Assembly: GCA_903851365.1 (NCBI GenBank)
Contig: CAINOB010000012.1
Span: forward strand, 1-35,266
Reading direction: 5' to 3'
From: an uncultured Bacteroidota bacterium
Lineage (GTDB): Bacteria > Bacteroidota > Bacteroidia > Bacteroidales > UBA12481
Length of the DNA stretch: 35,266 nt
Shown here: one piece after another, positions 12,417-33,405 of the stretch
Position numbering within the stretch: the stretch's first letter is position 1
Layout: every line of letters starts with the position of its first letter
Translations under genes and position numbers: made by a program
Notes under the pieces: model-generated
What the model was told of the DNA's origin: nothing
Seen by the model: only the letters and a program-made list of their open reading frames with translations
The model's database searches: none

Positions 12417-12434
12417 TTGTTAGTAAAATAACAG
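12417..12434. promoter_or_regulatory. Candidate Rex operator before block B
   Basis: TTGTTA-GTAAAA-TAACAG has the same half-sites and the same 6-nt spacer length as the site at 8735-8752, with a different spacer sequence. It is 14 nt before the DRTGG gene and just downstream of the predicted transcription start. A weaker copy, GTGTGA-AATAAA-TAACAT (12400-12417), overlaps its left edge at a 17-nt offset. The conservation of half-sites but not spacer is what a dimeric repressor site should show. Confidence 0.65.
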
Positions 12435-14573: not shown

Positions 14574-14576
14574 AAG

Positions 14577-15642: not shown

Positions 15643-15643
15643 A

Positions 15644-16189: not shown

Positions 16190-16192
16190 GAC

Positions 16193-18399: not shown

Positions 18400-18417
18400 G
18401 ACCAGATTATCATTGCT

Positions 18418-20199
18418 ATGGATAAAATAAATTTGATTATCGATCATAAGCCGGTCCAGGTGGAACCCGGCACCAGTTTGTTGAAAGCAGCCCAGCAGGT
18501 AGGAATTAATATACCAACTCTCTGCTATCTGCATCTCGAAGACCTGAACATTGAAAACAAACCCGGCGGATGCAGGATTTGTGTTGTAGAAGTGAGCGGA
18601 AGAAGAAACCTTGCTCCTTCGTGTGCTACGGTATGCCAGGAAGGTATGGTTGTAAAAACCAATACCATGCGGGTATTAAATGCCAGAAGAACGGTTATGG
18701 AGCTAATTCTGTCTGACCATCCTTTTGACTGCCTGATTTGTGCAAAAAGCGGAACCTGTGATCTTCAAAAGACGGCCCAGGATCTGGGTATCAGGGAGAT
18801 TCATTACAAAGGAGAGCAGTCACATTATAAAGAGGACCGTTCCCCATCGATTATCCGGGATATGGATAAATGCATTCTATGCCGCCGCTGCGAGATGATG
18901 TGCAATAAGTTCCAGACTGTTGGGGCTTTGTGGGGAATTAATCGTGGTTTTACTTCGGTGGTAGCTCCGGCCTTTGAACAGGATCTGGTTAAATCGACCT
19001 GTACTTATTGCGGACAATGTGTTGCAGTTTGCCCAACGGGTGCGCTGACCGAAGTTGATAATACCAATCAGATCATCAGGGCATTAGCAAATCCGAAGAA
19101 AACAGTAATTGTTCAAACTGCACCTGCTGTGAGAGCAGCACTTGGCGAGGAATTTGGTATGGAACCTGGTTCTCTGGTAACGGGTAAGATGGTTTCAGCA
19201 TTGAAGCAGCTTGGGTTTGATTATGTTTTTGATACCGATTTTGCTGCAGACCTTACTATTATGGAGGAGGGTACCGAACTTCTAAAACGGCTGACAAATT
19301 ATTTGAATGGAAATAAGGAAGAGTCCTTGCCTATTCTTACCTCCTGCTGTCCTGCCTGGGTAAATTTCTTTGAAGAGTATTTTCCTGAGATGAAGGATAT
19401 TCCTTCAACTGCCAGGTCGCCGCAGCAAATGTTTGGGGCAATTGCAAAGACTTATTTTGCTGATAAGATCGGGGTCGATCGTAAGGATTTAATTGTGGCC
19501 TCAATCATGCCTTGCCTGGCCAAGAAGTATGAGTGCCAACGTGAGGAATTTAAGACGGACGGAAATCCCGATGTTGATTATGCACTTTCAACACGCGAAT
19601 TAGCAGCATTAATTAAGCAATCAAATATTGATTTTCTCAGTCTTCCGGATGCAGATTTCGATAAACCGATGGGTGAGTCGACCGGAGCGGCCGTGATTTT
19701 CGGAACTACTGGCGGTGTTATTGAAGCAGCCGTTCGAACAGCCTATGAAGTTTATACTGGAAAAACACTGGAGAGAATCAGTTTTGAGGAATTGCGGGGG
19801 ATGGAAGGCATCCGCCATGCGACGATTGATTTTAATGGATTACCTATTAATATCGGGATCGCCCATGGTTTAGGGAATGCGCGTGAACTACTGGAAAGCA
19901 TAAAAGCCGGAACCTGTAACTTCCATGCGATTGAAATTATGGCTTGTCCTGGTGGCTGTATTGGCGGAGGAGGGCAGCCTCTGCACCACGGCAAATCCGG
20001 AGTCATCACAGCGAGACAGAAAGCCATTTATCAGGAAGATTTGGCTAAACCCATTCGGAAGTCTCATGAAAATCCATACATCAAGGAATTATACACCGAA
20101 TTTCTGGGTGAACCGCTCAGTGAGAAATCGCATCATCTGCTTCATACTCACTATTTCGATCGCAGTAAAGTTAAAGTGGTAATTCCCAAAACAAAATAA
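18418..20199 (+). CDS. hydA: HydA, [FeFe] hydrogenase catalytic subunit (set B, canonical)
   Basis: A 593-residue group A hydrogenase of the HydABC type. It has an N-terminal [2Fe-2S] (CYLHLEDLNIENKPGGCRIC), His-Cys [4Fe-4S] (HPFDCLICAKSGTC), two [4Fe-4S] (CILCRRCEMMC, CTYCGQCVAVC), the H-cluster domain and the SHENP ... LLHTHY tail. L1 TSCCPAW is canonical (Cys310 proton shuttle, Cys311 cluster ligand), L2 is MPCLAKKYE and L3 MACPGGCIGGGGQP. Proton-path motifs EEGTELL and SPQQMFG are present. It is a clear paralogue of the HydA at 10497-12290 and the best candidate for the main catalytic H2 enzyme. The maturases it needs are encoded elsewhere. Confidence 0.97.
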   Translation: MDKINLIIDHKPVQVEPGTSLLKAAQQVGINIPTLCYLHLEDLNIENKPGGCRICVVEVSGRRNLAPSCATVCQEGMVVKTNTMRVLNARRTVMELILSDHPFDCLICAKSGTCDLQKTAQDLGIREIHYKGEQSHYKEDRSPSIIRDMDKCILCRRCEMMCNKFQTVGALWGINRGFTSVVAPAFEQDLVKSTCTYCGQCVAVCPTGALTEVDNTNQIIRALANPKKTVIVQTAPAVRAALGEEFGMEPGSLVTGKMVSALKQLGFDYVFDTDFAADLTIMEEGTELLKRLTNYLNGNKEESLPILTSCCPAWVNFFEEYFPEMKDIPSTARSPQQMFGAIAKTYFADKIGVDRKDLIVASIMPCLAKKYECQREEFKTDGNPDVDYALSTRELAALIKQSNIDFLSLPDADFDKPMGESTGAAVIFGTTGGVIEAAVRTAYEVYTGKTLERISFEELRGMEGIRHATIDFNGLPINIGIAHGLGNARELLESIKAGTCNFHAIEIMACPGGCIGGGGQPLHHGKSGVITARQKAIYQEDLAKPIRKSHENPYIKELYTEFLGEPLSEKSHHLLHTHYFDRSKVKVVIPKTK

Positions 20200-20205
20200 A
20201 GCACT

Positions 20206-20688
20206 ATGTCCAGCATAAAAGTAGAATTACATGAAAACCAGGTCAATGAGCTGGTTGAAGTTTGCAAATCATTCTCAAATGATCCGTTTGAACTAATCCA
20301 TGTTTTGCATAAGGCCCAAAGTATTTTCGGTTACCTTCCGGCAGAAGTGCAGGAAATTGTGGCCCGCGAATTGAAAATTCCAGTAGCCAAAGTCTACGGT
20401 GTGGTAACTTTCTATTCATTTTTCAGTATGATACCAAAAGGGCAAAACCCGATTTCCATTTGTATGGGAACCGCCTGTTATGTCAGGGGAGCCGAGAAGG
20501 TACTTGAAGAATTTAAGCGGAAGTTAGCCGTTGAAGTGGGAGAGACCACAAAAGACGGAAGATTCTCATTAAACTGCTTGCGTTGTGTTGGTGCCTGCGG
20601 TTTGGCTCCGGTAGTTATGGTTGGAGATAAAACTTATGGCAGGGTTTCACCGGATGGTGTTCAGGAGATTCTCGCAGAATATATGTAG
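20206..20688 (+). CDS. hydC: HydC, NuoE-like [2Fe-2S] subunit of set B
   Basis: The 160-residue small subunit that completes HydABC, 6 nt after HydA. The N-terminal helical domain (about 1-75) is followed by a thioredoxin-like [2Fe-2S] domain with CMGTAC (C-x4-C) and CVGAC (C-x3-C). The KVYGVVTFYSFFSMIPKG segment is typical of NuoE. The gene order HydB-HydA-HydC differs from NuoE-NuoF-HydA in sets A and C, which argues against simple recent tandem duplication. The stop at 20688 faces the SpoIIE stop at 20713 on the other strand, and no convincing hairpin lies between them. Confidence 0.95.
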   Translation: MSSIKVELHENQVNELVEVCKSFSNDPFELIHVLHKAQSIFGYLPAEVQEIVARELKIPVAKVYGVVTFYSFFSMIPKGQNPISICMGTACYVRGAEKVLEEFKRKLAVEVGETTKDGRFSLNCLRCVGACGLAPVVMVGDKTYGRVSPDGVQEILAEYM

Positions 20689-20712: not shown

Positions 20713-21900
20713 TTAGATATAAGAAACTTTTACTTCTAGCAAGAATTTTTTCTCAAGAGTTCTGGCAATCCGCTTGACGACAGTCCGGCGGATTTCCAGT
20801 TCTACGGGCAGGCTTGGATCCTGATGCGCAATATTTATCCGGGTTCCGATGATGAAATACACTTCATCTGACTGCAGAATCATTTTAATAATTTCATCAG
20901 CAGGGCCTTTGCCAACTTTGACGTTTTCATTATAGTGGTCGAGTAAAACCGAAACCTTCCCAAGCGTTAAAATCCCTTCTGTTATAAGATCAACGCCTTC
21001 AAGAAAGGCGACCGGCGGTAAGTCGGGATCAGTAAACTCAAATGAATCAACGATTTTCTTTTTCCATTCGCGGGCAATAATGTCCGCGGTTGTGGCGCCG
21101 CAAAGTATTTTCCGTCCAGGGAAGTCTTTAACACGGGTGGCTAATTCCTTATCTTTTTCTAATTCATAAGGTGGTCCGGAGCAGATCAGTAATTTTCGAG
21201 GTTCCCTGAAATAGATGGTGGCACAGCTTGTATCATCCTGGCAATGATACTTGTCATTCTGCACAGCCGAGTTTATTATTCGGGTTGATAGTTTCCGCGC
21301 TGAGATATCAGGATCGCGTGTAATCAGATCTCTGATATGGTCGCCGAGCTTTTCCCGGCCCCAGCCGAATGGATAGGCTGTGAATCCCAGTCCTGACTGT
21401 ACAACGCCATCGGAGCAAATAACTATCCGATCTTCTTTTCTGGCATAAAATGAACATGTCAAAATTTCTTTTCCGGCATTTTTATCGGTGGTCATCAGGA
21501 TGCAGTTCCATTCGGGCTCAAGTTGTTGACGACCCCGGAAAATGAGTGCATGGGGGTTATCGTATTCCAGAATTCTAGTCAGCCCGTCCTCCTGTATATC
21601 GACAACGGTAAATGTTGAATATGACATTTGCCTGTCGGAGCATACCGGCAGGGTATTCATGATTATTTCCGCTATTTTTTCGACATCCTTATGTTCCTTA
21701 GTAAAATTTAATGCCATGGTTGCTGTTAGTGTTGCCAGCATATTTGCCTTGACACCGTGACCCATGCCATCGCTCAAAACCATAATAGTGCGACCCTCTT
21801 CTGAGACTTTCTGACTCAGAAAAACGTCCCCGCATATCCGTTCACCCTCCTGATACTTCTGCTGGCAGTTTATCTCGATATGGAATCGCGGCTCGTTCAT
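20713..21900 (-). CDS. SpoIIE/PP2C-type protein phosphatase
   Basis: A serine/threonine phosphatase of 395 residues. The PP2C metal residues are in GERICGDVF, LSDGMGHG, ICSDGV and CQDDTSC, all in the N-terminal 230 residues. The following roughly 160 residues (from RKLLICSGPP to the end) form a separate alpha/beta region I cannot name. It overlaps the PAS-containing HydS gene by 4 nt (ATGA), so it is probably that sensor's direct output: a phosphatase acting on a protein controlled by a GHKL kinase. This HydS-phosphatase pairing is known from genomes of anaerobic bacteria. Its target is not identifiable here. Confidence 0.9.
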   Translation of the reverse strand: MNEPRFHIEINCQQKYQEGERICGDVFLSQKVSEEGRTIMVLSDGMGHGVKANMLATLTATMALNFTKEHKDVEKIAEIIMNTLPVCSDRQMSYSTFTVVDIQEDGLTRILEYDNPHALIFRGRQQLEPEWNCILMTTDKNAGKEILTCSFYARKEDRIVICSDGVVQSGLGFTAYPFGWGREKLGDHIRDLITRDPDISARKLSTRIINSAVQNDKYHCQDDTSCATIYFREPRKLLICSGPPYELEKDKELATRVKDFPGRKILCGATTADIIAREWKKKIVDSFEFTDPDLPPVAFLEGVDLITEGILTLGKVSVLLDHYNENVKVGKGPADEIIKMILQSDEVYFIIGTRINIAHQDPSLPVELEIRRTVVKRIARTLEKKFLLEVKVSYI

Positions 21901-23789
21901 TTGGTTTCTTCCGAACGATAGTATTTAATAATTGAATTCAGCATTCTTTCTGTATCCGAAGCGCCCTCGCCAAGCAGAAATCCTATCTGTTGAACCATTT
22001 CAAGGTTTTTATCGATCACTTCAGTTACTTTTTTGATCACCTCTTCCTTTTGAACTTCAGGCAGCGAGAGGTCGCGCAGAACGGCCCCAAGAATGGAACC
22101 TTTATTTATGGGGAAAACAGACAAGTTTAAAAGTCTGTTATTCATTGCGATATCTTTATGCATTATATCCTGATGATTCTGAAGGACAAATGTAAACAGG
22201 TTAAGCATCTGAGGAGGAAATAATGTTCGAAGGTCGGCGCCTTTTAGCCCGGGAATTACCTCATCAATAGATTTTATTTCATCGCCAAGGATTTCTATGA
22301 ACTCTCGGTTGGCTTGAATAATTCTCAGATTTTCATTTACGATGACCACACCTGAGGGTATCTTCTGCAATACTGCTGTCAGGGTTTCGGAATATTCCTG
22401 TGCAAGTTTTTTTTCTTCCAATGCCAGTTTTTCAGATTCCTGCAGCGCTTTCTGAGCTTTTGCGAGCTGTTCATTAGATGAGCGTAATGATTTAATGTAT
22501 TCCTGCTTGTTTTTTGTTCCGTAGAGATGACACATTTCGGCTTTAGCGAGGCCTAGGGCAACAGCAATGGCAAAATCACGGCACGTCTTATATCCACAGG
22601 CAAGGCAGCCACGGTTAGTATCATGATCCCCGGATGTTCCGATCAGTCGGAGAATATCGCTGATTTCAGTCTCATCTGGTAAGGTAAGAATCTGATCATC
22701 AGGAGTAAATTGCCTATCAATTTCGGCGATTTTGTGCAATTCAAGATTTGATTGCCAATCTTCGTCGATGAAATTCTCAAACCTCTTTGCAGCATAGTCG
22801 GTCACAAGGGTCCTTCTGCGGAACTTATGACCGCCGGCTGACATACCCGGTCCCATGATACAACCTTCGCAATAGAACAGATCGAGATGTTTTCGAATAT
22901 CATATGATGTCGCAAACTCATCAATAGATTCTATCATATCCTGACGACCGTCGGTAGACAGGAAGTTACTTGCCAGGAGCTCCTCGAATTGATCAGCTGC
23001 CTGCATGAATCCAGAAGATAGGGGATAGAGGGCTCCTTTTCTTCCGTTCGGAGGATTGAAATCTGAAAATTCAACTGAATTTTCAGAAATTTGCTGAGTG
23101 GAGAACCATTCGCGTAATTCGGTAAACGAAATCTGAGCATCGATATGGTGAGGCTCACCCGGCTTTCCAAATTCAAGCCGGCTTGCGAGACAAGGATTAA
23201 TCAAAACCACAACGGTCTCATCTGATTCCCTTTCGCGAATTATCCGAGCCATTATTGAAGCAGGACTATGGACCTGAATAATATTTTCGGTTAGTTGCGG
23301 CTGGTGTTTTGTGATATAGGAAACCACCGCCGGGCATTTCGAGGATATCCTGTACTTGCCCTTAAAATCTGAGAATAGTTTAGCATGTGCTTGTGCTGAC
23401 AGGTCTACTGCGAATGACAAGTCGTACACCCCTGCAAAACCCAGAGCTCTGATCATGCCGACAAAATTCCTGTAGTCGGTTATGTCGGGGAATTCAGCCG
23501 AAATACTGGGATCAATTATTGCACTTGCCTGTTTGCCGGATTTAAGAAAATCTTTGACTTTTTCGAGGTCCGACTGAATTTTCACTGCTCTGGTGGGGCA
23601 GATAGAATAACAACTTCCGCAGGCAATACATCGATCGGACAGGATACTTACGTGATCAACATTTGCTTTTACTTCGATAGCCATTGCAGGGCACTCCCTA
23701 ACACACGCATAGCAAAGGATGCAGGGTTCTGGTTCTATCCAGATTATCCGGTCATTAGTTTTATTGTCTGGGATATTTGATTTTTTCAT
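21897..23789 (-). CDS. HydS/HsfB-type sensory [FeFe] hydrogenase-like protein with PAS domain
   Basis: A 630-residue putative H2 or redox sensor. Order: two-[4Fe-4S] ferredoxin (Cys23, 26, 29, 33 and Cys54, 57, 60, 64); hydrogenase-like domain with L1 SSKCPAVV, L2 NPCLASR and L3 FYCEGCIMGPG; Fe-S domain CLACGYKTC with a later Cys (EMCHLY); coiled coil about 428-465; PAS domain about 473-570; C-terminal helix. The shuttle Cys is Lys, L2 lacks the Met and Lys of active enzymes, and L3 is C-x2-C instead of C-x3-C. It matches the sensory group C described for Thermotoga and clostridia. It overlaps its neighbours by 4 nt on both sides. Confidence 0.92.
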   Translation of the reverse strand: MKKSNIPDNKTNDRIIWIEPEPCILCYACVRECPAMAIEVKANVDHVSILSDRCIACGSCYSICPTRAVKIQSDLEKVKDFLKSGKQASAIIDPSISAEFPDITDYRNFVGMIRALGFAGVYDLSFAVDLSAQAHAKLFSDFKGKYRISSKCPAVVSYITKHQPQLTENIIQVHSPASIMARIIRERESDETVVVLINPCLASRLEFGKPGEPHHIDAQISFTELREWFSTQQISENSVEFSDFNPPNGRKGALYPLSSGFMQAADQFEELLASNFLSTDGRQDMIESIDEFATSYDIRKHLDLFYCEGCIMGPGMSAGGHKFRRRTLVTDYAAKRFENFIDEDWQSNLELHKIAEIDRQFTPDDQILTLPDETEISDILRLIGTSGDHDTNRGCLACGYKTCRDFAIAVALGLAKAEMCHLYGTKNKQEYIKSLRSSNEQLAKAQKALQESEKLALEEKKLAQEYSETLTAVLQKIPSGVVIVNENLRIIQANREFIEILGDEIKSIDEVIPGLKGADLRTLFPPQMLNLFTFVLQNHQDIMHKDIAMNNRLLNLSVFPINKGSILGAVLRDLSLPEVQKEEVIKKVTEVIDKNLEMVQQIGFLLGEGASDTERMLNSIIKYYRSEETK

Positions 23790-24037
23790 AGCCCAAAATG
23801 GTTCTTTAACAGTCTTTTCAATTCGTCAGGATCGTGTGAATGTATTAAATTATCTCCGATCTGGATCATTGGCCCTTCACCACAATGGCCAAAGCAGTGT
23901 GATCCATGAAAATTGACTTTATCTGTGAGGTGATATTGGATCAGAAATTGCTGGACAACCTGCACCATTTTTTTATTTCCGCGTGCGAAGCATGAGCTTC
24001 CCAGACAGATTCTTATCTCCGTTTTAATCTCTTCCAT
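23786..24037 (-). CDS. Small stand-alone [2Fe-2S] thioredoxin-like ferredoxin
   Basis: An 83-residue protein equal to the C-terminal domain of NuoE, with CLGSSC (C-x4-C) and CFGHC (C-x3-C). Leading the leftward operon and overlapping the PAS-HydS gene by ATGA, it is a likely electron partner or redox input for that sensor. Unlike the ferredoxin at 16193-16609 it keeps all four ligands. Confidence 0.9.
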   Translation of the reverse strand: MEEIKTEIRICLGSSCFARGNKKMVQVVQQFLIQYHLTDKVNFHGSHCFGHCGEGPMIQIGDNLIHSHDPDELKRLLKNHFGL

Positions 24038-24053
24038 GATTAGTTACAAATCA

Positions 24054-24071
24054 TTGTTCCAAAAATAACAA
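24054..24071. promoter_or_regulatory. Candidate Rex operator, leftward arm of block C
   Basis: TTGTTC-CAAAAA-TAACAA, one base from the inverted repeat TTGTTA-N6-TAACAA. It is 17 nt upstream of the leftward ferredoxin start and fully covers a minus-strand -7 box, so binding should occlude that promoter. Confidence 0.5.
24060..24067 (-). promoter_or_regulatory. Candidate -7 promoter box for the leftward sensor operon
   Basis: On the minus strand this reads TATTTTTG, a full match to TAnnTTTG. No clean TTTG was found at the -33 position (only a TTTTTTC run from 24091-24097), so the call is tentative. It would drive the ferredoxin, PAS-HydS and SpoIIE genes. Confidence 0.45.
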
Positions 24072-24132: not shown

Positions 24133-24150
24133 ATGTTATATTAATAACAA
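24133..24150. promoter_or_regulatory. Candidate Rex operator, rightward arm of block C
   Basis: ATGTTA-TATTAA-TAACAA, again one base from TTGTTA-N6-TAACAA. A weaker partner, ATGTTT-ATTTGA-TAACAG (24150-24167), follows at a 17-nt offset and ends 1 nt before the ATG at 24169; the same tandem offset is seen at 12400-12434. A possible promoter is TTTG (24116-24119) with TATATTAA (24137-24144), overlapping the site. The 131-nt region 24038-24168 thus seems to hold back-to-back promoters, each with its own site. Confidence 0.5.
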
Positions 24151-24168: not shown

Positions 24169-24627
24169 ATGAGTACTGAATTCGTGGATCTTTTGAAGAA
24201 ATTCCCTGCCGGACGGCGGGAAAACCTGATCCCTATTCTTCAGGAGTTTCAGGATCTGCATGGATTTATCCCAGAACCAGCAGTGGCTGCGATTGCGGAA
24301 TATCTTGAAATCCCAGCAGTTAAAATTTACAGTGTTGCTACTTTTTATAATGAGTTTCGATTCAATGCCGGAGGACGGTATCATTTTCAGGTTTGCCAGG
24401 GAATTGGATGCCAGGTGGATAGTAGTGAGAGGATACGTTCCGAATTAGGCAGGTTGCTTGAGATTGAACCCGGCGAAATTACCGGAGATGGCTGGTTTAG
24501 TCTCGAATGGGTACCTTGCCTGGGTGTTTGTCAGGAAGCTCCGGTTTTATCAGTCAATGGAGAGTTATATGCCAAAATGACTCCGGTGAGACTTAAAGAA
24601 CTTGTAGATAAGTTCCGCAATCGATAA
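24169..24627 (+). CDS. NuoE-like [2Fe-2S] subunit of divergent set C
   Basis: A 152-residue HydC/NuoE protein with the N-terminal helical part (LLKKFPAGRRENLIPILQEFQ) and a thioredoxin-like domain with CQGIGC (C-x4-C) and CLGVC (C-x3-C). All cluster ligands are present, unlike in its NuoF partner's N-terminal domain. It begins a rightward operon running at least through the receiver-kinase gene and probably to Rex, with gaps of 34 nt or less. Confidence 0.92.
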   Translation: MSTEFVDLLKKFPAGRRENLIPILQEFQDLHGFIPEPAVAAIAEYLEIPAVKIYSVATFYNEFRFNAGGRYHFQVCQGIGCQVDSSERIRSELGRLLEIEPGEITGDGWFSLEWVPCLGVCQEAPVLSVNGELYAKMTPVRLKELVDKFRNR

Positions 24628-24631
24628 AAAA

Positions 24632-26581
24632 ATGGAAACACCCCGAATGAGCGAAGAGCTACGCGACGGCTTGCTGGGATTAGTAACTCATCAGCAGCCT
24701 GAATCGGACCAGGCATTAAGATTTCTCGGTCGGACACTGAGGCGGGAGCGTATCGAAACCCTAACAGTTTTTATCGATAGGACGACTCCGACGACAATTT
24801 ATAGCATCAATCTTATTGAAGAAGCAGTAAAACAATGGTCTGTTGAGAATCAGCATCCTTCCGAGATTGTTGAAACCGGATGCTTGGGATTAATTTCAGT
24901 TGAACCGGTTGTTGGAATACAGGTTCCCGGAAGGGCAAGGTTATATTATGGACCTGTAGAGCCAACGGATATTGCAGGGATGTTGAATGCTATAACCAAA
25001 CAGGTTGTACCGGAGGAAAATCTTATCGGACAAATGGTTATGGCTGGCCAACAGCCATGGGAAGACATTCCCGATTGGAAAAAGCATCCTTTTTTTATCA
25101 ACCAGGAGCGTTCTGTCACGAGTTTGAATGGGGTTATTAATCCCTGTCATATATCGGATTATATTGCCTGGGGAGGATATCGTACTTTTTACAACAGTAT
25201 AAGAAATTATTCCGGTCAGGAATTAATGAAGCTGATTGAACAAAGCGGATTAAGGGGTAGGTCTGGATCGGGATTTCTGGCATCTGTTAAATGGGCCAAG
25301 GCAGCTGAAACAACCAGTGATAAGCGATATGTTCTTTGCAATGCCGACGAATCGGATCCCGGTGGTTACATGCATCGAATCCTTGTTGAAAGTAATCCTC
25401 ACCTGATATTGGAAGGAATTATGCTGGCTGCCTATATTATTGGAGCCAACCATGCCATTATCTATACACGGTCGAGGTACAGAATGGCAGTTAAGAGGAT
25501 ACAATGTGCATTGAGTCAGGCCAGAGAATTCGGATTGATTGGCCAGGATATCCTTCATAGTGGATTTACGCTGGACATCCAACTGAAAAGAGGCCCCGGA
25601 GCTTTTGTCTGCGGTGAAGAAACGGCGTTAATATCAAGTCTGGAGGGCAAGCGAGGATCACCAAGGACCAGGCCTCCCTATCCGGCAACTTCAGGATTGT
25701 TTGGAAAACCAACATTGATTCACAATATCGAGACTCTCGCTCAAGTTCCAATGATAATTGGCAAAGGACCTGATAATTACAGGCAATTAGGAACGCCTGG
25801 ATCTAGTGGTACCAAGCTTTTTAGTCTTTCTGGGAAAATTAAGCGACTTGGTGTGGTTGAAGTTCCTTTTGGAACATCATTGGGTGAGGTTATCAACAGT
25901 ATGGGTGGTGGTACACGTAATGGGCGGCCTGCCAAAGCAGTGTTATTGGGAGGGCCCTCCGGAAAGTTTATCCCTGTATCAAAATTTGATATTCAACTGG
26001 ATCTCGACAAATTCAACGAAGAGAATCTTGTCCTTGGGTCGGGAAGCATTGTCTTATTGGATGATGAGAGTTGTCCGATCAACCTTACCAAGAATATGAT
26101 GGATTTCATCCGCCAGGAGAGTTGTGGGAAATGCATTCCATGCAGAGACGGATCAAAGAGAATCATGGAGGTTTTGAGCTTGATTTCAAGCCGTTCGACT
26201 CCTGAAAATAAATATGAAGCCCTTGACCGGTTTAAGGGTGTAACCGGTGTTCTGGAACTTGCGGAAGTGATGCAATCTACTTCATTGTGTGGTTTGGGCA
26301 AGTGTGCACCAAACCCTCTGATCAGCGGAATGGAATTGTTTAGAGAAGAGTTGGAAGAACATGTATTCGACCGAACCTGCCGGGCAGGTGTCTGTTTAAA
26401 TATGAGATCATTCCTTGTTGATCCGGTGGCTTGCAACGGATGTAACCTATGCTTTGTTAAATGTCCGGAAAAAGCGATTATTGGCTCACCCCGACAAGTC
26501 CATTATATTGTTGACGACCTTTGTACTGGTTGTGGTAAGTGTTTTGATGTCTGCAAGTTCAATGCCATTTTGGTAAATTAA
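24632..26581 (+). CDS. NuoF-like flavin subunit of set C, altered NAD(P)H site
   Basis: A 649-residue long-form NuoF/HydB. The N-terminal thioredoxin-like domain has lost its cluster ligands: the second motif is GCLGLI (Cys84, Ile88) and the first C-x4-C pair is absent. The NuoF core keeps CNADESDPGGYMHR, GPGAFVCGEETAL and the [4Fe-4S] motifs ESCGKCIPCRDG and SLCGLGK. The flavin loop reads GRSGSGF rather than GRGGGGF. The ribose-contact motif is YTRSRY, with Arg282 in place of the Glu found at 119 and 239 in its two paralogues here. Both C-terminal [4Fe-4S] motifs are intact. The reaction partner may be NADPH or another donor; this is inference. Confidence 0.92.
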   Translation: METPRMSEELRDGLLGLVTHQQPESDQALRFLGRTLRRERIETLTVFIDRTTPTTIYSINLIEEAVKQWSVENQHPSEIVETGCLGLISVEPVVGIQVPGRARLYYGPVEPTDIAGMLNAITKQVVPEENLIGQMVMAGQQPWEDIPDWKKHPFFINQERSVTSLNGVINPCHISDYIAWGGYRTFYNSIRNYSGQELMKLIEQSGLRGRSGSGFLASVKWAKAAETTSDKRYVLCNADESDPGGYMHRILVESNPHLILEGIMLAAYIIGANHAIIYTRSRYRMAVKRIQCALSQAREFGLIGQDILHSGFTLDIQLKRGPGAFVCGEETALISSLEGKRGSPRTRPPYPATSGLFGKPTLIHNIETLAQVPMIIGKGPDNYRQLGTPGSSGTKLFSLSGKIKRLGVVEVPFGTSLGEVINSMGGGTRNGRPAKAVLLGGPSGKFIPVSKFDIQLDLDKFNEENLVLGSGSIVLLDDESCPINLTKNMMDFIRQESCGKCIPCRDGSKRIMEVLSLISSRSTPENKYEALDRFKGVTGVLELAEVMQSTSLCGLGKCAPNPLISGMELFREELEEHVFDRTCRAGVCLNMRSFLVDPVACNGCNLCFVKCPEKAIIGSPRQVHYIVDDLCTGCGKCFDVCKFNAILVN

Positions 26582-26591
26582 TTCTTCACCT

Positions 26592-28289
26592 ATGATGATT
26601 GAAATTGAAGTTAACGGACGGAAGATAAAAACCCAAAAGGGGGAACTTATCCTTGACACGTTAAAAGCAAATGGCATTCATGTTCCGACTTTATGTAACC
26701 TGGAAGGATTTAAACCATCGGGAGCCTGCCGGATATGCGTAGTTGAAGTGGAGGGGCGAAACGACCTGGTACCCTCATGTTCCTTTTTTATTGAGGAATC
26801 GATGAAGATCCAGACACATTCTGCCCGAGTTATTCAGGCCAGAAAAACCATACTGGAACTTTTACTTTCAAACCACGATGATGCATGCTTGTCCTGCGAT
26901 AGGGGAAGGTGGTGCAAATTGCATGAACTGGCATTTGAATTGAATGTCACTGAAAGGAAATTCGGACGGACAGCCGGAAGAAAGAAAATTGACAATACCA
27001 GCCAGGCGATTATCCGTGATCCTTCAAAATGTATATTGTGCAGCCGTTGTGTACGAGTCTGCGAAGAATTGCAGCATGTTGCAGCACTGGACTTCCTAAA
27101 AAGGGGCAGTCGTACAGAAGTTGGTACGGTACTGGATAAAGGACTCAACTATTCTTCCTGTATCAGTTGTGGGCAGTGCATTCAGGTGTGCCCGACCGGA
27201 GCGCTCAAGGAAAAAAGCCATCTTGATCAGGTGGGAGCATTGTTACAAAACAAGGACAAGGTTCCGGTAGCGATGATAGATCCAGCTGTTTTTGCAACTC
27301 TGGGCGAGTTTTTTGGATATAAAGCCGGACCTGAATTTTCATCGATTCTGATTAACGCCCTTAAACGGATAGGCTTTCAAAAAGTATATGGAACGGGCTG
27401 GGGAGCAGAATATCAAGCTGGAAGATTAGCTGGTATTCTCATCGATAAAAATCCTGATGAAAATGATACTCCGCTCATTTTTTCGGAATGCCCATCTGTA
27501 GTCAGGTACATCAGTCAAAGCAGACCCGCACTCCTGTCAAGGCTTGTGCCGCTCAAACCGGCAAACCAGATTATGGCTCATTTGCTCAGGGAATTAACCT
27601 GCAATCAAACTGGAAAATCAAAGTCTGATGTTTCTATTGTTTACCTGACCTCCTGTACAGCATCGAAAAATGAAACCACTGCAGCGATGAGGATCAAGGG
27701 TTCAGGATTTTTACCTGATTTCTCTTTGACAACCCGCGAGGTCTATCGGTTAATCCGTTTATATGGCATTGACGTTGAAAGTTTGAATCCGGAATTTCAG
27801 GAAGATTTCTTTGGCGTTGGGGCAAAATCAGGTCAACTTGGTGCCATATCTGGGGGGAATATCGAGATGTTAACCAGAATTATCCAAGCCAGGATTCCGG
27901 AGGCCAATCTGAGTGGAGAAAAGGCCGGAAAGCTAAGGGGAATAAAAGACGTAAAAGAAACAACCTGCGAATTTAACGGCAAAAAGCTGACATTGGCATC
28001 GATAAGCAGTATAACCCAATTTGAAAACTATTATAAGGAAATCCGCAGTAAGCATCGTAAGGTGGATTTGCTGGAGGTTATGGCCTGTCAGCATGGCTGT
28101 ATTAACGGAGGCGGACAACCGTGTCGGGGTGCTGAGCGAAATTTGCGTAACAGGATGAAGGGTGTACTCGAGTGGGATGATAGATTTTCTGGAATAATGA
28201 CAAAGGATCACCTTGATTTACCTTCTGATCTGATTCTGAATGATGAGGATTGCCAGGCGGTTTTTTCGCCAAGGCAGATTACAAAATAA
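26592..28289 (+). CDS. HydA-like subunit with remodelled H-cluster pocket (set C)
   Basis: A 565-residue HydA homologue. The electron-relay half is complete: [2Fe-2S] (CNLEGFKPSGACRIC), His-Cys [4Fe-4S] (HDDACLSCDRGRWC) and two [4Fe-4S] (CILCSRCVRVC, CISCGQCIQVC). In the H-domain all four cluster cysteines remain: FSECPSVV (Cys300), TSCTASK and MACQHGCINGGGQP. The shuttle Cys is Glu299, the L2 Met is Thr, the cyanide-contacting Lys is Ser, and the proton-path motifs EEGTELL and SPQQ are gone (PANQ at the latter). The small-subunit tail with SHENP and LLHTHY is absent. It may be a sensor, a catalytically slow hydrogenase or an enzyme for another small molecule. The start may be 26592 or 26595. 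Confidence 0.9.
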   Translation: MMIEIEVNGRKIKTQKGELILDTLKANGIHVPTLCNLEGFKPSGACRICVVEVEGRNDLVPSCSFFIEESMKIQTHSARVIQARKTILELLLSNHDDACLSCDRGRWCKLHELAFELNVTERKFGRTAGRKKIDNTSQAIIRDPSKCILCSRCVRVCEELQHVAALDFLKRGSRTEVGTVLDKGLNYSSCISCGQCIQVCPTGALKEKSHLDQVGALLQNKDKVPVAMIDPAVFATLGEFFGYKAGPEFSSILINALKRIGFQKVYGTGWGAEYQAGRLAGILIDKNPDENDTPLIFSECPSVVRYISQSRPALLSRLVPLKPANQIMAHLLRELTCNQTGKSKSDVSIVYLTSCTASKNETTAAMRIKGSGFLPDFSLTTREVYRLIRLYGIDVESLNPEFQEDFFGVGAKSGQLGAISGGNIEMLTRIIQARIPEANLSGEKAGKLRGIKDVKETTCEFNGKKLTLASISSITQFENYYKEIRSKHRKVDLLEVMACQHGCINGGGQPCRGAERNLRNRMKGVLEWDDRFSGIMTKDHLDLPSDLILNDEDCQAVFSPRQITK

Positions 28290-28295
28290 AAAGCA

Positions 28296-30287
28296 ATGGC
28301 AGAAACTGGCTATAAGAAACTGGTAACCACAATTCCTGACAAGTGCAGGGTTTGTTATACCTGCGTTCGGGAATGTCCGGCAAAAGCAATAAAGATTGTC
28401 AATGGACAGGCAGAAGTAATGCATGAAAGATGCATTGGATGCGGGAATTGTGTGAAAGTATGTTCTCAGAAAGCAAAAAGTTTTCTGAATGAAGAAAAAG
28501 AGGTTTTCGCTCTGTTAAAAAGCGGTCAACCTGTTGCCGCCTTAATTGCACCCAGCTTTCCAGCTGAATTCGGTGACCTGTCTGATCCTCATGAACTCGT
28601 TGGTGTACTCAGGGCAATGGGCTTTAAATATGTTTGCGAGGTTGCCTTTGGAGCCGACCTGGTAGCCAGGTCGTTCTCGGATATTTTTTCCAATGAGGAG
28701 CACCCTGCAGTCATCAGTTCAGATTGTCCGGCGGTAGTTTATTATGTCCGGCAATATCATCCAGGCCTTGTTCCGGCCCTTGCAAAAGTGGCTTCACCGA
28801 TGGTGGCTATGACGAGGGTTGTGAAGAAAAAATATGGGAAAAATGTCAGGACAGTATTTATTGGACCATGCATCAGTAAGAAAGCTGAATCTGATGAAAT
28901 AGACTATGTGCTTACCTTTCAGGAGTTAAGGCATATGATGAAGCATAAGGGCATTAAACCCGGTCAGATCCAGCCTTCAGAGTTTGATCCTCCTAGAGCT
29001 GGTCGGGGACTTATTTTTCCGGTGAAGAGAGGCATGTTGCAGACGATTAATATCCCTGAAGATCTTTTTGATGGAAACATACTTGTAGCCGAAGGGAAAG
29101 TCAATTTCCCAGCTGCCATTGATGAATTTGAGCAGGGAGCCATTGCCGACCAGCACCTCGAATTACTATGCTGCGAAGGCTGCCTGATGGGTCCGGGGAT
29201 GTCGCCGGATGGAAAGCGCTATGCCAGACGTGCGCTTATTGGGAATTATGTCAGGGACAGGATTCATCACCATGATAATCAAAAGTGGAATGATGAAATG
29301 GCTGAATATGCATCCCTCGATCTTAGTCAGACCTTTGCTCCGGTAGATCGCAGGCTCGATATGCCAACTCCGGCAAAAATCAGAAAAGTCCTAGCTTCGA
29401 TTGGCAAGCGCAACCCTCAGGATCATCTGAATTGCGGTGCATGCGGATATGATTCGTGCGAAAGTCACGCGGTCGCAATTGCCCAGGGTTTAGCCGAAGT
29501 GGATATGTGTCTTCCTTACACGATTGAGAAAATGCATACTTCTATCATGGAGCTGAATTTCTCAAACGAAAAACTTGCTAAAGTACAGCAGGCTTTAAAG
29601 CATTCCGAGAAACTTGCCCACATGGGTCAATTATCGGCTGGTATAGCTCATGAGCTGAATAACCCTCTGGGTGTTGTGATCATGTATGCCAATATCCTGT
29701 TGGATGAATGTGAAAATGATCAGACGAAACAAGATCTTGGACTGATTGTTGCGCAAGCCGACCGTTGTAAACGTATTGTCGGTAACCTGTTGAATTTTGC
29801 CCGAAAAAATCAGGTGCGCCTTGAGGAGGTTAGTCTTGTTAAGCTGGCACAGGATAGTCTGACCTCCGTTATCATCCCTGACAGGATAAAAACCATGATC
29901 GACAGCAGGGTAAAAGATGCTGTAACATACCTGGATCAGGAGCAGATGATGCAGGTTTTAACTAATCTGATAAAAAATGCGGTAGATGCTATTCCCGGCA
30001 CTGGCTACCTGACCATTGCCATTGAATGTGATGCTGAATATTTCTGCCTGAGCGTCAAGGATACCGGGACTGGCATATCTCCGGAGAATATGGATAAAGT
30101 GTTTACTCCATTCTTTACGACAAAGGAGATTGGCAAGGGCACAGGACTTGGTTTGGCCACCACTTACGGAATTATTAAAATGCACAAAGGTAAAATCGAA
30201 GTGGAGTCGAACAATGATCCGGTTACCGGACCCACCGGTACAAGCTTCAAGATATTTTTACCCCGAATTAATGATTTGAAATTATGA
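28296..30287 (+). CDS. HydS-like sensor fused to a histidine kinase
   Basis: A 663-residue single-chain sensor kinase. Order: two-[4Fe-4S] ferredoxin (Cys17, 20, 23, 27 and Cys46, 49, 52, 56); hydrogenase-like domain with L1 SSDCPAVV (Cys144), L2 GPCISKK (Cys192) and L3 CCEGCLMGPG (Cys292, 293, 296); Fe-S domain Cys380, 383, 388, 405; short coiled coil; HisKA with phosphoacceptor His452 in GIAHELNNPLG; HATPase with NLIKNAVDAI, DTGTGI and GTGLGLATTYGI. It has no transmembrane segment, so sensing is cytoplasmic. It overlaps a receiver gene by ATGA. The input domains imply H2 or Fe-S redox sensing; the ligand is inferred. The shuttle Cys is Asp143. Confidence 0.93.
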   Translation: MAETGYKKLVTTIPDKCRVCYTCVRECPAKAIKIVNGQAEVMHERCIGCGNCVKVCSQKAKSFLNEEKEVFALLKSGQPVAALIAPSFPAEFGDLSDPHELVGVLRAMGFKYVCEVAFGADLVARSFSDIFSNEEHPAVISSDCPAVVYYVRQYHPGLVPALAKVASPMVAMTRVVKKKYGKNVRTVFIGPCISKKAESDEIDYVLTFQELRHMMKHKGIKPGQIQPSEFDPPRAGRGLIFPVKRGMLQTINIPEDLFDGNILVAEGKVNFPAAIDEFEQGAIADQHLELLCCEGCLMGPGMSPDGKRYARRALIGNYVRDRIHHHDNQKWNDEMAEYASLDLSQTFAPVDRRLDMPTPAKIRKVLASIGKRNPQDHLNCGACGYDSCESHAVAIAQGLAEVDMCLPYTIEKMHTSIMELNFSNEKLAKVQQALKHSEKLAHMGQLSAGIAHELNNPLGVVIMYANILLDECENDQTKQDLGLIVAQADRCKRIVGNLLNFARKNQVRLEEVSLVKLAQDSLTSVIIPDRIKTMIDSRVKDAVTYLDQEQMMQVLTNLIKNAVDAIPGTGYLTIAIECDAEYFCLSVKDTGTGISPENMDKVFTPFFTTKEIGKGTGLGLATTYGIIKMHKGKIEVESNNDPVTGPTGTSFKIFLPRINDLKL

Positions 30288-30685
30288 CAAATGAAGAATA
30301 CCTGCCTCTGATTCTATTAGCTGATGATGATCCTGATTATCTTTTTCAGATGAAGTTTGCACTGGAGAAGGGGGGATTTCGGGTGATTACCGCTGAATCA
30401 ATGGACGAAGCTGAATTAATTTTAGAAAAGGACCATCCTAAACTGGCCATTTTCGACCTGATGATGGAACGGGATGATGCCGGGTTCATTCTTTCCTACC
30501 ATGCAAAGAAAAAGCACCCGGGCATGCCAGTAATTCTCCTGACAGCGGTTACGGCAGAAACCGGACGACAGTTCGGATCGAATTTGCCTGGAGCAGATGG
30601 ATGGATAAAAGCGGATTTATATCTTGAAAAGGGTTTACATCCGGATCAGCTGATTGAGCACATTAAATCTTTATTAAGCCATTAG
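30284..30685 (+). CDS. Single-domain response regulator
   Basis: A 133-residue receiver with acidic pocket Asp14-Asp15-Asp16 (ADDDPDY), phosphoacceptor Asp58 (AIFDLMM) and switch Thr in ILLTAVT. No output domain is present. The C-terminal part is somewhat divergent (GADGWIKADLYLEKG instead of the usual Lys-Pro). It overlaps the sensor kinase by 4 nt and precedes a receiver-kinase by 2 nt, so it is the likely first phosphate acceptor or an intermediate in a relay. Confidence 0.92.
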   Translation: MTNEEYLPLILLADDDPDYLFQMKFALEKGGFRVITAESMDEAELILEKDHPKLAIFDLMMERDDAGFILSYHAKKKHPGMPVILLTAVTAETGRQFGSNLPGADGWIKADLYLEKGLHPDQLIEHIKSLLSH

Positions 30686-30687
30686 AA

Positions 30688-31812
30688 ATGGAAATGTTAA
30701 AGGTTTTGGTCGTTGATGATGAGCCTGGAATCCGTTCCGGCATCGATCGTATTTTAAGCAAATTCACAGTCGGATATCCGTTTATGGATGAGGACATCGG
30801 TTATACCGTATATGAAGCCTCGACTGGTGAAGAAGCAATCAGGATTTTTCATGATAATCCACCTGATATTGCCCTGCTTGATAATAAGTTGCCGGGAATG
30901 GGGGGGGTAGAAGTCCTGGAATATATTAAAAGGAACCAATTAAATATTGAGGTGATGATGATCACTTCATTTGCTTCTCTCGAGTTAGCTGTAAAGGCGA
31001 CCAATATCGGGGCCTATGATTTTGTTCCTAAGCCCTTTACTCCACAGGAACTGCGCTCATCCATGGAAAATATCACTAAGCATCTTTTTCTGAAAAGGAT
31101 GACGCAGAAAATGAATAAGGAGGGAAAGCAGATCAGGTTTCAATTCTTATCAGTGCTCTCACATGAACTAAAGAATCCGTTAAATTCCATTGAGGGGTAC
31201 TTGCGGATGATGCAGGAACGACAAGCGGGCGATCAGATTGCTTCTTATGATGAAATGATTGATCGTGCCATAGCAAGAATCAAAGGTATGCGGGTCCTGA
31301 TCATGGATCTCCTTGATTTGACCAAGATTGAGTCAGGCAAGAAAAACCGCGAGATGCAGCAGACTGATCTCGTAAAAATTGCGAGGATATCCTGTGAAAC
31401 CATGGGCCCAATGGCTATTCAAATGGAAGTGGATATTCAGTTGAATTCTCCTGAAGAGTTTAATGTGATGGCCGATGCCGAAGAGCTGGAGATCATTTTA
31501 AATAACCTTATAAGTAATGCTGTCAAGTACAACAAAGTTGGCGGCAAGGTGATTTGTACACTTAAAACAGTGAATAATAAGCTTATCATAGAGGTTGAGG
31601 ATACGGGTATCGGAATACCTGAAGATGATATTCCGACGCTTTTCCGCGAGTTTGTTCGCATCAGGCAGAAGGAAACCAAGCATATCATGGGGTCCGGTTT
31701 GGGTTTGAGCATTGTGAAAAGGCTGATTGATCTTTATGATGGAACTATTGAAGTTGAAAGCCATCCTGGGAAGGGTTCAATTTTCAGGGTAGTGTTGCCA
31801 GTTATTATCTGA
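30688..31812 (+). CDS. Receiver-histidine kinase hybrid
   Basis: A 374-residue protein with an N-terminal receiver (Asp10-Asp11, phosphoacceptor Asp65 in LLDNKLPGMGG, Lys in PKPFTP) followed by HisKA with His159 in LSHELKNPLN and an HATPase (NNLISNAVKYN, DTGIGIP, GSGLGLSIVKRLI). It is cytoplasmic with no DNA-binding domain. A receiver in front of a kinase suggests that the fused sensor kinase upstream gates this second kinase. The final output regulator is not in the window. Confidence 0.93.
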   Translation: MEMLKVLVVDDEPGIRSGIDRILSKFTVGYPFMDEDIGYTVYEASTGEEAIRIFHDNPPDIALLDNKLPGMGGVEVLEYIKRNQLNIEVMMITSFASLELAVKATNIGAYDFVPKPFTPQELRSSMENITKHLFLKRMTQKMNKEGKQIRFQFLSVLSHELKNPLNSIEGYLRMMQERQAGDQIASYDEMIDRAIARIKGMRVLIMDLLDLTKIESGKKNREMQQTDLVKIARISCETMGPMAIQMEVDIQLNSPEEFNVMADAEELEIILNNLISNAVKYNKVGGKVICTLKTVNNKLIIEVEDTGIGIPEDDIPTLFREFVRIRQKETKHIMGSGLGLSIVKRLIDLYDGTIEVESHPGKGSIFRVVLPVII

Positions 31813-31846
31813 TTATGTATGTTTGGACAAATTAATTCTGATTATC

Positions 31847-32470
31847 ATGAGTTTACCCGAAAAAACGGTTGAAAGACTAAGCGAATACCGGAGAACTTTG
31901 CTGGATTGCCTGAATCAGGGTAAGAGCCATATTTTCTCCCATGAGCTTGCAGCGCTGCTCCATAACACTGCTGTACAGGTCCGTCGTGATATGATGTTAA
32001 TGGGTTTTACCAGCATGCAGCGTAAAGGTTATGCAATTAAAGAACTCATTGAAGCTATTGGTGAATTGATCGACACTTCCGAAGGATTAAATGTTGCGGT
32101 GATTGGTGTTGGAAACCTTGGCCGCGCTATTACCGGTTATTTTCAAGGTAAGCGGTCGAAACTAAACATTGTTGCCACTTTTGATATCGATCCGGAAAAG
32201 ATCGGACGAATGATTGCCGGCGTAAAATGCTATTCACTTGATGATTTTCCAAAACTCGTGGGTGACTTGCAGATTTCGATTGCAATCCTCACTGTACCAC
32301 CGGAACATGCCCGTAATATTGCGGACTTTGTTGCATCGAGCGGCATTAAGGGAATCCAGAATTTTACGACCGCTCCGTTAAATATGCCACCCCATGTTTA
32401 TCTTGAGGAATATGATATGATCACCTCTCTGGAAAAAATCGCTTATTTTGTAAAAAATCATCAGGGATAA
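31847..32470 (+). CDS. rex: Redox-sensing transcriptional repressor Rex
   Basis: Rex represses anaerobic energy genes when NADH is low relative to NAD+ and lets go when NADH rises. The N-terminal winged helix (about 1-75) contains HELAALLHNTAVQVRRDMM, followed by the Rossmann domain with VAVIGVGNLGRAI, and the C-terminal swapped helix has NMPPHVYLEEYD. ATG at 31847 gives 207 residues; the open frame back to a TTG at 31823 is less likely. It lies 34 nt after the receiver-kinase gene. The four TTGTTA-like dyads before the hydrogenase blocks are its likely targets; no such site was seen right before rex. Confidence 0.93.
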   Translation: MSLPEKTVERLSEYRRTLLDCLNQGKSHIFSHELAALLHNTAVQVRRDMMLMGFTSMQRKGYAIKELIEAIGELIDTSEGLNVAVIGVGNLGRAITGYFQGKRSKLNIVATFDIDPEKIGRMIAGVKCYSLDDFPKLVGDLQISIAILTVPPEHARNIADFVASSGIKGIQNFTTAPLNMPPHVYLEEYDMITSLEKIAYFVKNHQG

Positions 32471-32493: not shown

Positions 32494-33405
32494 ATGCTTG
32501 TTCACCGGAGTCTCGAGAAACTCAATATAAATAAATCTGTGGTTACCACAGGGTCGTTTGATGGGGTGCATGTTGGCCACAGAACGATTATCAATCGCTT
32601 ACGCTCCATTGCCAAAGAAACTGATGGCGTTTCAGTTTTGGTAACGTTTTATCCTCATCCACGTAAAATTCTGTATCCCAATACGCAAGGTAAAGACCTT
32701 CAGATGATCAATACCCAGCGGGAAAAAATCTACCTTTTAGAAAAAGCAGGATTGGATCATTTGGTCATTATCCCATTTTCACTGGAATTCTCTAAAACTA
32801 CTTCGGTCGATTTTATCCGTAAAATATTGGTTGCTAAATTACACGCCAGTTGCGTTGTAGTGGGTTTCAACCATCATTTCGGACATAACAGGGAAGGGGA
32901 TTATGATTATTTGCATGAACTCGGGAAATATTATGATTTTGCTGTGGAGGAGATTCCTGAGCAAGACATTCACAATGAGTTTGTCAGTTCGACTAAAATC
33001 AGGAAAGCAATCCTGGAGGGAAATATTCAACGTGCAAATGCATATCTTGATCATGAGTATTTTTTTATTGCCCCGATTAAGCCGGCTTCAGATGTATTGA
33101 TGCCGATGGGAATCCAGTGGTTTGAATTGATTCCTGAGGAGGAAGAAAAACAAATTACCCCTCCAGGAGTCTATGCCGGTTCGGTTCTTGAAGATGACCG
33201 GAGAATTAAAGTAATGGTGTTGATTGAGGAAACTGCTCAAGGCAGCCGGATATTACTAAATGCCCCTGAGTATGATCTTTCAGTGCTCCCAGAGGTTAAT
33301 CTCGCATTTCATAAAAAGATACGACTTACCGCTCCAGGTGAGTCTGGTTTTGATAAATCCTTACTTATTCAGGACATAGAGGACATTCGCGATCTTATTT
33401 ATTGA
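32494..33405 (+). CDS. ribF: RibF-like protein: FAD synthetase domain intact, riboflavin-kinase domain degenerate
   Basis: RibF normally makes FMN and FAD from riboflavin. The N-terminal nucleotidyltransferase half is normal: TTGSFDGVHVGH (residues 18-29), VTFYPHPR, FNHHFGHNREGD and SSTKIRKAILEGN. After about residue 185 the flavokinase motif (GRxxGFPTAN) cannot be found. A region with PPGVYAGSVLEDDRR aligns roughly with the kinase beta-barrel, so the fold may persist without the ATP site. The 303-residue length is near normal. It may be an FAD synthetase only, with another RibF elsewhere. Its last 45 nt overlap the end of the convergent ABC ATPase gene. Confidence 0.85.
   Translation: MLVHRSLEKLNINKSVVTTGSFDGVHVGHRTIINRLRSIAKETDGVSVLVTFYPHPRKILYPNTQGKDLQMINTQREKIYLLEKAGLDHLVIIPFSLEFSKTTSVDFIRKILVAKLHASCVVVGFNHHFGHNREGDYDYLHELGKYYDFAVEEIPEQDIHNEFVSSTKIRKAILEGNIQRANAYLDHEYFFIAPIKPASDVLMPMGIQWFELIPEEEEKQITPPGVYAGSVLEDDRRIKVMVLIEETAQGSRILLNAPEYDLSVLPEVNLAFHKKIRLTAPGESGFDKSLLIQDIEDIRDLIY

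Follow-up and report, generated by a model that had tools for sequence, protein, structure and literature searches.

The window analysed here, a stretch of 35,266 nt from an uncultured Bacteroidota bacterium, encodes at 28296-30287 (+) what is probably, judging from its sequence, a soluble sensor histidine kinase that derives from a group C [FeFe]-hydrogenase and belongs to the BfuT type, with a proposed phosphorelay. This fusion is a single open frame of 663 amino acids. Pfam places Fer4-type motifs for two [4Fe-4S] clusters within residues 13-60, Fe_hyd_lg_C at 79-300 (E 1.1e-46), an FeS domain at 378-407 and, after a helix, HisKA at 443-505 with the phospho-acceptor His452, followed by HATPase_c at 547-657, i.e. 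the layout of an orthodox histidine kinase. This agrees with the first-pass annotation, which had described a ferredoxin, an H-cluster-like domain and a C-terminal Fe-S domain in one chain with HisKA/HATPase, a hydrogenase-derived sensor being joined directly to a kinase. No PAS domain was detected by Pfam in the 663-residue chain, which separates it from M2f HydS proteins (TmHydS type). A chance open reading frame or a frameshift as the source of the fusion is ruled out by the single open frame with full domain matches. The AlphaFold model of the fusion is poor (pLDDT 66, pTM 0.50) and was used solely for rough fold matches.

The residues expected to bind metal clusters and phosphate are strongly conserved. 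In an alignment of 40 rows, where rows without a given residue are gaps or L078 (no hydrogenase part), the eight N-terminal ferredoxin cysteines are present in each of the 37 hydrogenase rows covering them, the H-cluster cysteines C144, C192, C293 and C296 in 37, 39, 38 and 38 rows, respectively, and the four FeS-domain cysteines in 38. His452 is found in 39 of 39 covering rows, including L078, a kinase without hydrogenase part. All four H-cluster cysteines are thus present, yet motif P3 reads Cx2C and not Cx3C; the HydA proteins and the group D-like HydS have one more residue at this place. Lys358 is retained in all 39 hydrogenase rows, the Met353 position is Gly in 38 of 39, and at position 299, Asp is found in 34 of 37 rows (Ser in two, Asn in one). 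According to the available portion of PMC3485046, Asp is the only replacement of this cysteine giving high activity in CaHydA. No Met occupies the Met497 place of the fusion in the alignment, and further classical proton-path residues seem absent from it, as judged by eye and uncounted.

Counting the window's own, 22 of the 60 genomes from the order carry the fusion. Because it is present in so many independent assemblies, at 38 loci whose 38 sequences are all different (L040 and L077 being the two contig pieces of G006), the assembly join that the first-pass annotation had named as a possible refutation is ruled out. In three genomes (G002, G037 and G041) the match shows one internal TAA, with open frames of 1929-1980 nt. 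The gene order, proposed earlier as a check, is conserved as well. A script found HydA immediately 5' of the fusion at 32 of the 33 loci with enough upstream sequence, the receiver-kinase downstream at 32 of 34 and rex downstream at 25 of 33; the eight loci lacking rex become seven once L063 is corrected. L055 and L072 carry the fusion without partner genes. In the window the run, all on the + strand, comprises a hydC-like gene for a 2Fe-2S thioredoxin-like protein of NuoE type (24169-24627; PF01257, E 2.9e-43), a hydB-like gene of NuoF type with a C-terminal ferredoxin domain (24632-26581; PF01512, PF10589), a group A-like HydA, here HydA' (26592-28289), the fusion, two receiver genes, rex and, as end gene of the conserved run, a ribF-like FAD synthetase gene (32494-33405). 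The two receiver genes are as first annotated. The lone receiver (30284-30685, 133 aa, Pfam receiver 10-127) overlaps the fusion by 4 nt (30284-30287), and a 2-nt gap (30685/30688) separates it from the receiver-histidine kinase (30688-31812, 374 aa; receiver 6-125, HisKA 152-217, HATPase_c 263-372). Asp58 of the former is conserved in 34 of 34 sequences, Asp65 and His159 of the latter in 35 of 35, L078 counted, so that adjoining receivers with conserved acceptor aspartates, as a phosphorelay demands, are in place.

The distance between sensor and kinase is nearly invariant. The stretch from the last Fe-S cysteine, C405, to His452, both counted, measures 48 residues in 37 of 38 relatives; L045 alone deviates with 34, i.e. 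14 residues or two heptads fewer. This spacing fits a phase-locked coil, but a single multiple-of-seven exception could also be due to chance, and the rows share kinship. The spacing and its two-heptad exception, together with the conserved cluster cysteines, argue against the improbable alternative that the H-domain does not regulate the kinase and that the fusion merely tethers it to the HydABC-like complex, an idea left room by the fact that we found no biochemical data on the fusion in the literature consulted. The best NCBIfam match of the kinase core is AtoS, far under the cut-off (184.6 of 646 bits), and its best fold match, taken from the poor AlphaFold model, is ZraS. The nearest kinase elsewhere in the genome is 34% identical to the fusion kinase and is directly followed by a regulator with a receiver-like N-terminus and GAFTGA. 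In Perlabentimonas, a Cache-domain kinase whose kinase part is 55% identical to that of the fusion precedes a related receiver-kinase (60%). Since a fusion-like kinase thus stands on a Cache sensor before a related receiver-kinase, the sensor part looks swappable.

The BfuT-type reading spans a pure redox sensor and an H2 sensor, which differ only in the presence of the diiron site in the window's lineage. HydE, HydF and HydG, whose presence in a genome is a mark of functional [FeFe]-hydrogenase, had no match over the cut-off in the 12 genomes from the window's family (its own, which is 99.4% complete, and 11 relatives) or in G053. When a Bacteroidales HydG served as BLAST query against eight family genomes, no match was better than 4e-6, while full matches were obtained in two control genomes, one of them the query's own. 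An H-cluster in the fusion is therefore not assured in this lineage, and the H2 sensing suggested by the first-pass annotation becomes doubtful for this organism; it is plausible where HydEFG exists. Among open-licence papers, nothing on point was found about hydrogenases without HydEFG. HydG does exceed the cut-off in 14 fusion-bearing genomes, and in eight of these hydG lies 1.6-5 kb downstream of the fusion on the same strand (coordinates compared by eye; in G024, a contig end carries a piece of hydG).

These uniform absences would be explained if the H-domain were always left without its [2Fe] subsite in the window's lineage and held the cubane [4Fe-4S] only, the protein being a pure redox sensor kinase, to which we give close to an even chance. 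Loss of the Lys358 position in two proteins encoded nearby points the same way. HydA' has Ser there in P2 and Glu at the proton-relay cysteine in P1 (SECPSV), with its four cubane cysteines retained. Among 32 HydA' rows, the window included, the relay cysteine and Lys358 are both lost in 15, both kept in 15, and only the lysine is kept in two; about five changes are required on the tree, and its well-supported branches yield a single independent pair, for which reason joint loss is not claimed statistically. The other protein, a divergent HydS paralogue with PAS (21897-23789, -), also has Ser at the Lys358 position and shares 34% identity with the fusion across 475 aligned positions (1e-101). 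It is followed by a gene for a SpoIIE-type phosphatase (20713-21900, -; PF07228, E 3.8e-13), and an 83-aa 2Fe-2S thioredoxin-like protein is encoded at 23786-24037 (-). Against a pure redox role, all eight HydG-less carriers (G000-G003, G005, G006, G008 and G053) keep Asp299 and Lys358 in the fusion, and the key P1-P3 residues of HydA1 and HydA2 are intact in 17 of 17 sequences from ten family relatives, which is unexpected if [2Fe] is never bound. The same conservation, and the hydG gene adjoining the operon in other families, would suit H2 sensing through a complete H-cluster here too, with maturases that were overlooked, e.g. because an unbinned replicon carries them, or whose task is taken over by an unrecognised route. 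This is possible, but we hold it tentatively, as the absence is uniform over 12 genomes and three genes. That the family equips two catalytic HydABC enzymes and the sensor kinase with H-clusters by an unrecognised maturation route that dispenses with HydEFG seems unlikely; if true, an organism free of HydEFG would have a functioning H2 receptor in the sensor kinase. The uniform lack of detectable HydEFG beside intact-looking hydrogenases raises the question of what role they have without a diiron site, or by which route one is assembled.

For the BfuT-type sensor kinase, electrons would reach the H-domain from H2 by way of the H-cluster in organisms able to build one, and in others from reduced ferredoxin-type partners. 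Both the N-terminal and the C-terminal [4Fe-4S] clusters may relay the reduction state to the fixed-length coiled coil, which would shift the kinase/phosphatase balance at His452. Phosphoryl groups could then pass to Asp58 of the lone receiver and Asp65 of the receiver-kinase, and this branched signal would be handed on to a regulator, most likely of NtrC type, whose gene lies elsewhere. Because a single chain holds sensor, coil and kinase and its operon also encodes the receivers, the H2-sensor idea is testable in one assay. No output regulator linked by sequence to the relay was found. The sigma-54 motif G.FTGA is absent from the ORFs of loci L048, L050, L051, L055, L066, L072, L074 and L078 (the Cache-kinase locus). 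Among eight proteins from five of those loci, Pfam recognised, besides receivers, a PAS kinase, the Cache kinase with its receiver-kinase, a protein of metallo-beta-lactamase fold and a radical SAM protein, which is HydG. A scan for sigma-54 promoters gave no signal (23 matches at two mismatches versus 18.4 expected).

The first-pass annotation had considered the terminal output missing. This stands as far as such a regulator is concerned, but the next gene, not noticed in that reading, is rex (31823-32470, +; NF003995, 190.3 bits, cut-off 126), which starts 10 nt past the receiver-kinase end (31812/31823) and encodes a redox-sensing repressor. Rex proteins are NADH sensors without phospho-acceptor, so rex still does not account for where the relay ends. 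Rex-type operators, as sequence sites only, stand before each of the three hydrogenase operons in the window: TTGTTC-N6-TAACAA in the divergent promoter region (24054-24071) and ATGTTA-N6-TAACAA before hydC (24133-24150), each with one mismatch, one site before HydCBA-1 (8735-8752; hydC at 8817) and one (12417-12434) before the run 12449-20688 with the group D-like HydS and HydBAC-2. The first Rex pattern, at three mismatches, was weak (6 versus 3.2 expected). TTGTTA-N6-TAACAA occurs four times in the window versus 0.12 expected, a partly circular figure as the pattern was shaped after viewing intergenic palindromes; the T. ethanolicus Rex motif ATTGTTAN6TAACAAT (PMC5886521), found afterwards, is the same. 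Genome-wide, a backward control pattern occurs at 37 places versus 22 for the Rex motif, which is therefore not enriched as such, and placement alone counts. The operon would yield a HydABC-like complex and Rex, and hydrogenase genes may be set both by NADH/NAD+ through Rex and by the sensor's own reading.

The first-pass annotation had regarded the system as undescribed. This was dropped, since the available portion of PMC11406978 (2024) describes [FeFe]-hydrogenases of group C that bear a histidine kinase domain and lie beside HydABC, namely group C3 as BfuT of sub-type V BfuABC, in a cluster of Hydrogenedentota and Calditrichota, and group C1 with HATPase_C in Hydrogenedentota; in the excerpted PMC5037454, HydDB has a "histidine kinase-linked (putative)" subtype C1. 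The fusion resembles BfuT in having Fe_hyd_lg_C and a histidine kinase in one chain and in lying downstream of hydA/bfuA. The window is also like three Bacteroidota described there with one bfuT 3' of bfuA and another 5' of bfuC, although in that portion of PMC11406978 explicit mention of the kinase domain is confined to Hydrogenedentota and a HydDB best hit and does not extend to the Bacteroidota genes. It names no receivers, rex or relay-cysteine loss, whereas the window has a degenerate HydA' and its genome no HydEFG over the cut-off. Relative to that text, our analysis adds the coil spacing, rex with its operators, the HydEFG absence and the HydA' residue loss. For HydDB group C1, H2 sensing via histidine kinases is proposed (PMC5037454, in part); the fusion, likened to it by description, has the kinase inside its chain. 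In the cited literature, as far as available, group C enzymes are termed putative H2 sensors whose signal path is not demonstrated. TmHydS of Thermotoga maritima (group C; portions of PMC10055695 and PMC13104023) shares with the fusion the N- and C-terminal [4Fe-4S] clusters, an altered Cys299 and Gly at the Met353 place (Gly177, PMC10055695), but it has PAS and Ala at 299 where the fusion has HisKA/HATPase and Asp. TamHydS of Thermoanaerobacter mathranii (group D; excerpts of PMC8163306) likewise has a sensor-type H-domain beside HydABC and a kinase-like ATPase, with no kinase in its chain, unlike the fusion. Group D membership of the fusion is ruled out by its kinase and by its much greater distance from the group D-like HydS of the window (13236-14573; 24%, 8e-24) than from the PAS paralogue. 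HoxBC-HoxJ combines a regulatory [NiFe]-hydrogenase with a histidine kinase as separate subunit. In group 2b of this class (PMC5037454, in part), a hydrogenase feeds a kinase as proposed for the fusion, through a metal site unrelated to that of the fusion.

ORF calling and Pfam confirmed the three-gene make-up proposed in the first-pass annotation: a fusion of a hydrogenase-derived sensor with a kinase (28296-30287, + strand; two ferredoxin-type motifs, Fe_hyd_lg_C, FeS, HisKA and HATPase_c), a receiver (30284-30685) and a receiver-kinase (30688-31812). The gene next after the receiver-kinase is rex (NCBIfam model). The genome (5.23 Mb, 130 contigs, completeness 99.37%), whose close named relatives are uncultured Bacteroidetes or Bacteroidales MAGs, has six Fe_hyd_lg_C matches, all inside the window: HydA1, HydA2, the degenerate HydA' adjoining the fusion, the fusion itself, a PAS-bearing HydS and a group D-like HydS. 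The fusion had also been put forward as a candidate for an undescribed system, a view that must be given up since both its kind and its arrangement are already in print. In the accessible text of PMC11406978, the BfuABC clusters of Hydrogenedentota include group C3 [FeFe]-hydrogenases that bear a histidine kinase domain, Calditrichota share this organisation, and in three Bacteroidota one bfuT lies downstream of bfuA and another upstream of bfuC, with no express statement there on the kinase domain of these Bacteroidota genes. HydDB lists C1 as histidine kinase-linked (excerpt of PMC5037454). The portions of these two papers at hand mention no receivers, rex, operators, coil length, degenerate HydA' or HydEFG lack, and our literature searches brought up no further paper recognised as dealing with this fusion.

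The fusion was found in 22 of the 60 genomes of the order compared (window's own counted) and, within the window's family, in 7 of 12. It also occurs in named Bacteroidota MAGs and in one MAG titled Ignavibacteria. From 42 loci examined, removal of three duplicates and of L078 left 38 different fusion sequences, two of which (L040 and L077) are parts from one genome. Loci L078-L080 match the kinase part only. The Perlabentimonas gracilis stretch (L078:6966-9982), a locus other than the bfuT loci of PMC11406978, encodes a Cache-domain kinase with a similar kinase core, plus a receiver-kinase; compared with the fusion, this kinase looks like a sensor swap. The conserved order is divergent SpoIIE, HydS-PAS and small ferredoxin, then hydC, hydB, hydA, fusion, receiver, receiver-kinase, rex and ribF. 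Conservation of gene order was borne out by a script run over the fusion loci, which counted HydA upstream in 32 of 33, receiver-kinase in 32 of 34, receiver in 31 of 35 (overlooking those of L043 and L061, present on inspection), hydB and hydC in 24 of 27, rex in 25 of 33 (overlooking that of L063, likewise present), divergent HydS-PAS in 13 of 19 and SpoIIE in 9 of 11. No rex was seen in the stretch examined of L048, L050, L051, L066 and L074; L050 and L074 have an additional receiver upstream of hydC, as do L048 and L051 by BLAST match. At L055 and L072, one of them the Ignavibacteria-titled MAG, the fusion stands without HydABC, receivers or other operon partners in the stretch examined.

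In the alignment, the cluster cysteines and His452 are invariant in all hydrogenase rows covering those positions. Lys358 (CpI numbering), the residue that holds a cyanide ligand, is present in 39/39 hydrogenase rows of the fusion. The proton-relay position (Cys299 of CpI) is occupied by Asp in 34 of 37 rows, Ser in 2 and Asn in 1. According to the accessible text of PMC10055695, sensory types conserve the hydrogen-bonding residues that fix the [2Fe] site, and about 43% of them have Ala and 17% Cys at position 299; in that of PMC3485046, Asp is the only replacement of the relay Cys giving high activity. The fusion and its PAS paralogue have a C-x2-C P3 motif; that of the group D-like HydS is C-x3-C, as in the HydA proteins. 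From C405 to His452, both counted, there are 48 residues in 37 of 38 fusion rows and 34 in L045.

Among 32 rows of the HydA directly upstream of the fusion, window included, 15 have both Cys299 and Lys358, 15 lack both and 2 lack the Cys only, the relay Cys being gone in 17. The window's HydA' (26592-28289) has Glu at the relay Cys and Ser at the Lys358 place. The four cubane Cys are present in those HydA' rows that were read. On the HydA tree, many branches of which are weak, the losses amount to about five changes. HydA1 (10497-12290) has TSCSPGW as P1, the same as the solved HydA1 7q4v. The PAS paralogue (21897-23789, - strand), which adjoins a SpoIIE phosphatase, matches the fusion at 34% over 475 aligned positions; the likeness runs through the same helix and then gives way to PAS, as if the output part had been swapped. 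Lys358 is lacking in 17/17 rows of this paralogue, and some cubane Cys are missing in 5, with Asn at the C499 place in 4 and Lys in 1 (L056, where the other cubane Cys are missing too). It is perhaps a cubane-only sensor. The run 12449-20688, in which a group D-like HydS (13236-14573) and HATPase, DRTGG and PHP genes stand ahead of a HydBAC set, is reminiscent of the T. mathranii arrangement (PMC8163306).

Models for the maturation proteins exceeded the cut-off in 22 (HydG), 26 (HydE) and 24 (HydF) of the 60 genomes, and none of the three did so in any of the window family's 12 genomes, which are 62-100% complete, or in G053, another Bacteroidales genome. With a Bacteroidales HydG as BLAST query, the best match in eight family genomes was no better than 4e-6 and G053 gave none; full matches came from the two positive controls, of which one was the genome that the query was taken from. 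HydG was over the cut-off in 14 of the 22 fusion-bearing genomes and not in 8. A wider survey, read by eye, took in 148 genomes of the order with a completeness of 90% or more; a strong HydA (E <=1e-80) turned up in 94, and 13 of these had no HydG over the cut-off. HydE and HydF were looked at in nine of these 13 (G080, G101, G110 and G125 left out): HydE is present in G017, G021, G044 and G059, so gaps may explain the missing HydG, and in G000 (the window's own), G004, G007, G014 and G053 none of the three is over the cut-off. Key P1-P3 residues are intact in 17/17 HydA1 and HydA2 sequences of ten family relatives; in L102, a more distant HydA of G005, the Met353 place is taken by Ala, and G011 gave no HydA of this kind among the relatives compared. 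The diiron site may still be made where HydEFG were not detected; if not, the intact P1-P3 residues serve another purpose.

The Rex motif of Thermoanaerobacter ethanolicus is ATTGTTAN6TAACAAT (excerpt of PMC5886521). Our search pattern, which equals the 18-base core of this motif and allows one mismatch, was shaped on window sites already seen, before the published motif came to light. It finds four sites in the window (shuffles: mean 0.12, 0/100 reaching 4). Two of them lie in the divergent region ahead of hydC; of the other two, one precedes the HydCBA-1 set and one the run from 12449. Genome-wide there are 22, four of them in the window's 0.67% of the genome (binomial 1.4e-5); a backward control pattern gives 37, so it is the placement of these sites that is notable, not their number. 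Seventeen divergent regions, including the window's, hold 16 sites in 11 regions, where 0.13 would be expected and the highest count among 500 shuffles was 2. Six of the 16 come from the window together with two congeneric relatives, and 6/17 regions have none. Going by its family, Rex is not known to act as a phospho-acceptor. The kinase core of the fusion resembles the AtoS/ZraS type by best family and fold matches, and the partner of the genome's nearest other kinase carries GAFTGA, which together point to a sigma-54 activator encoded elsewhere as the putative output of the relay.
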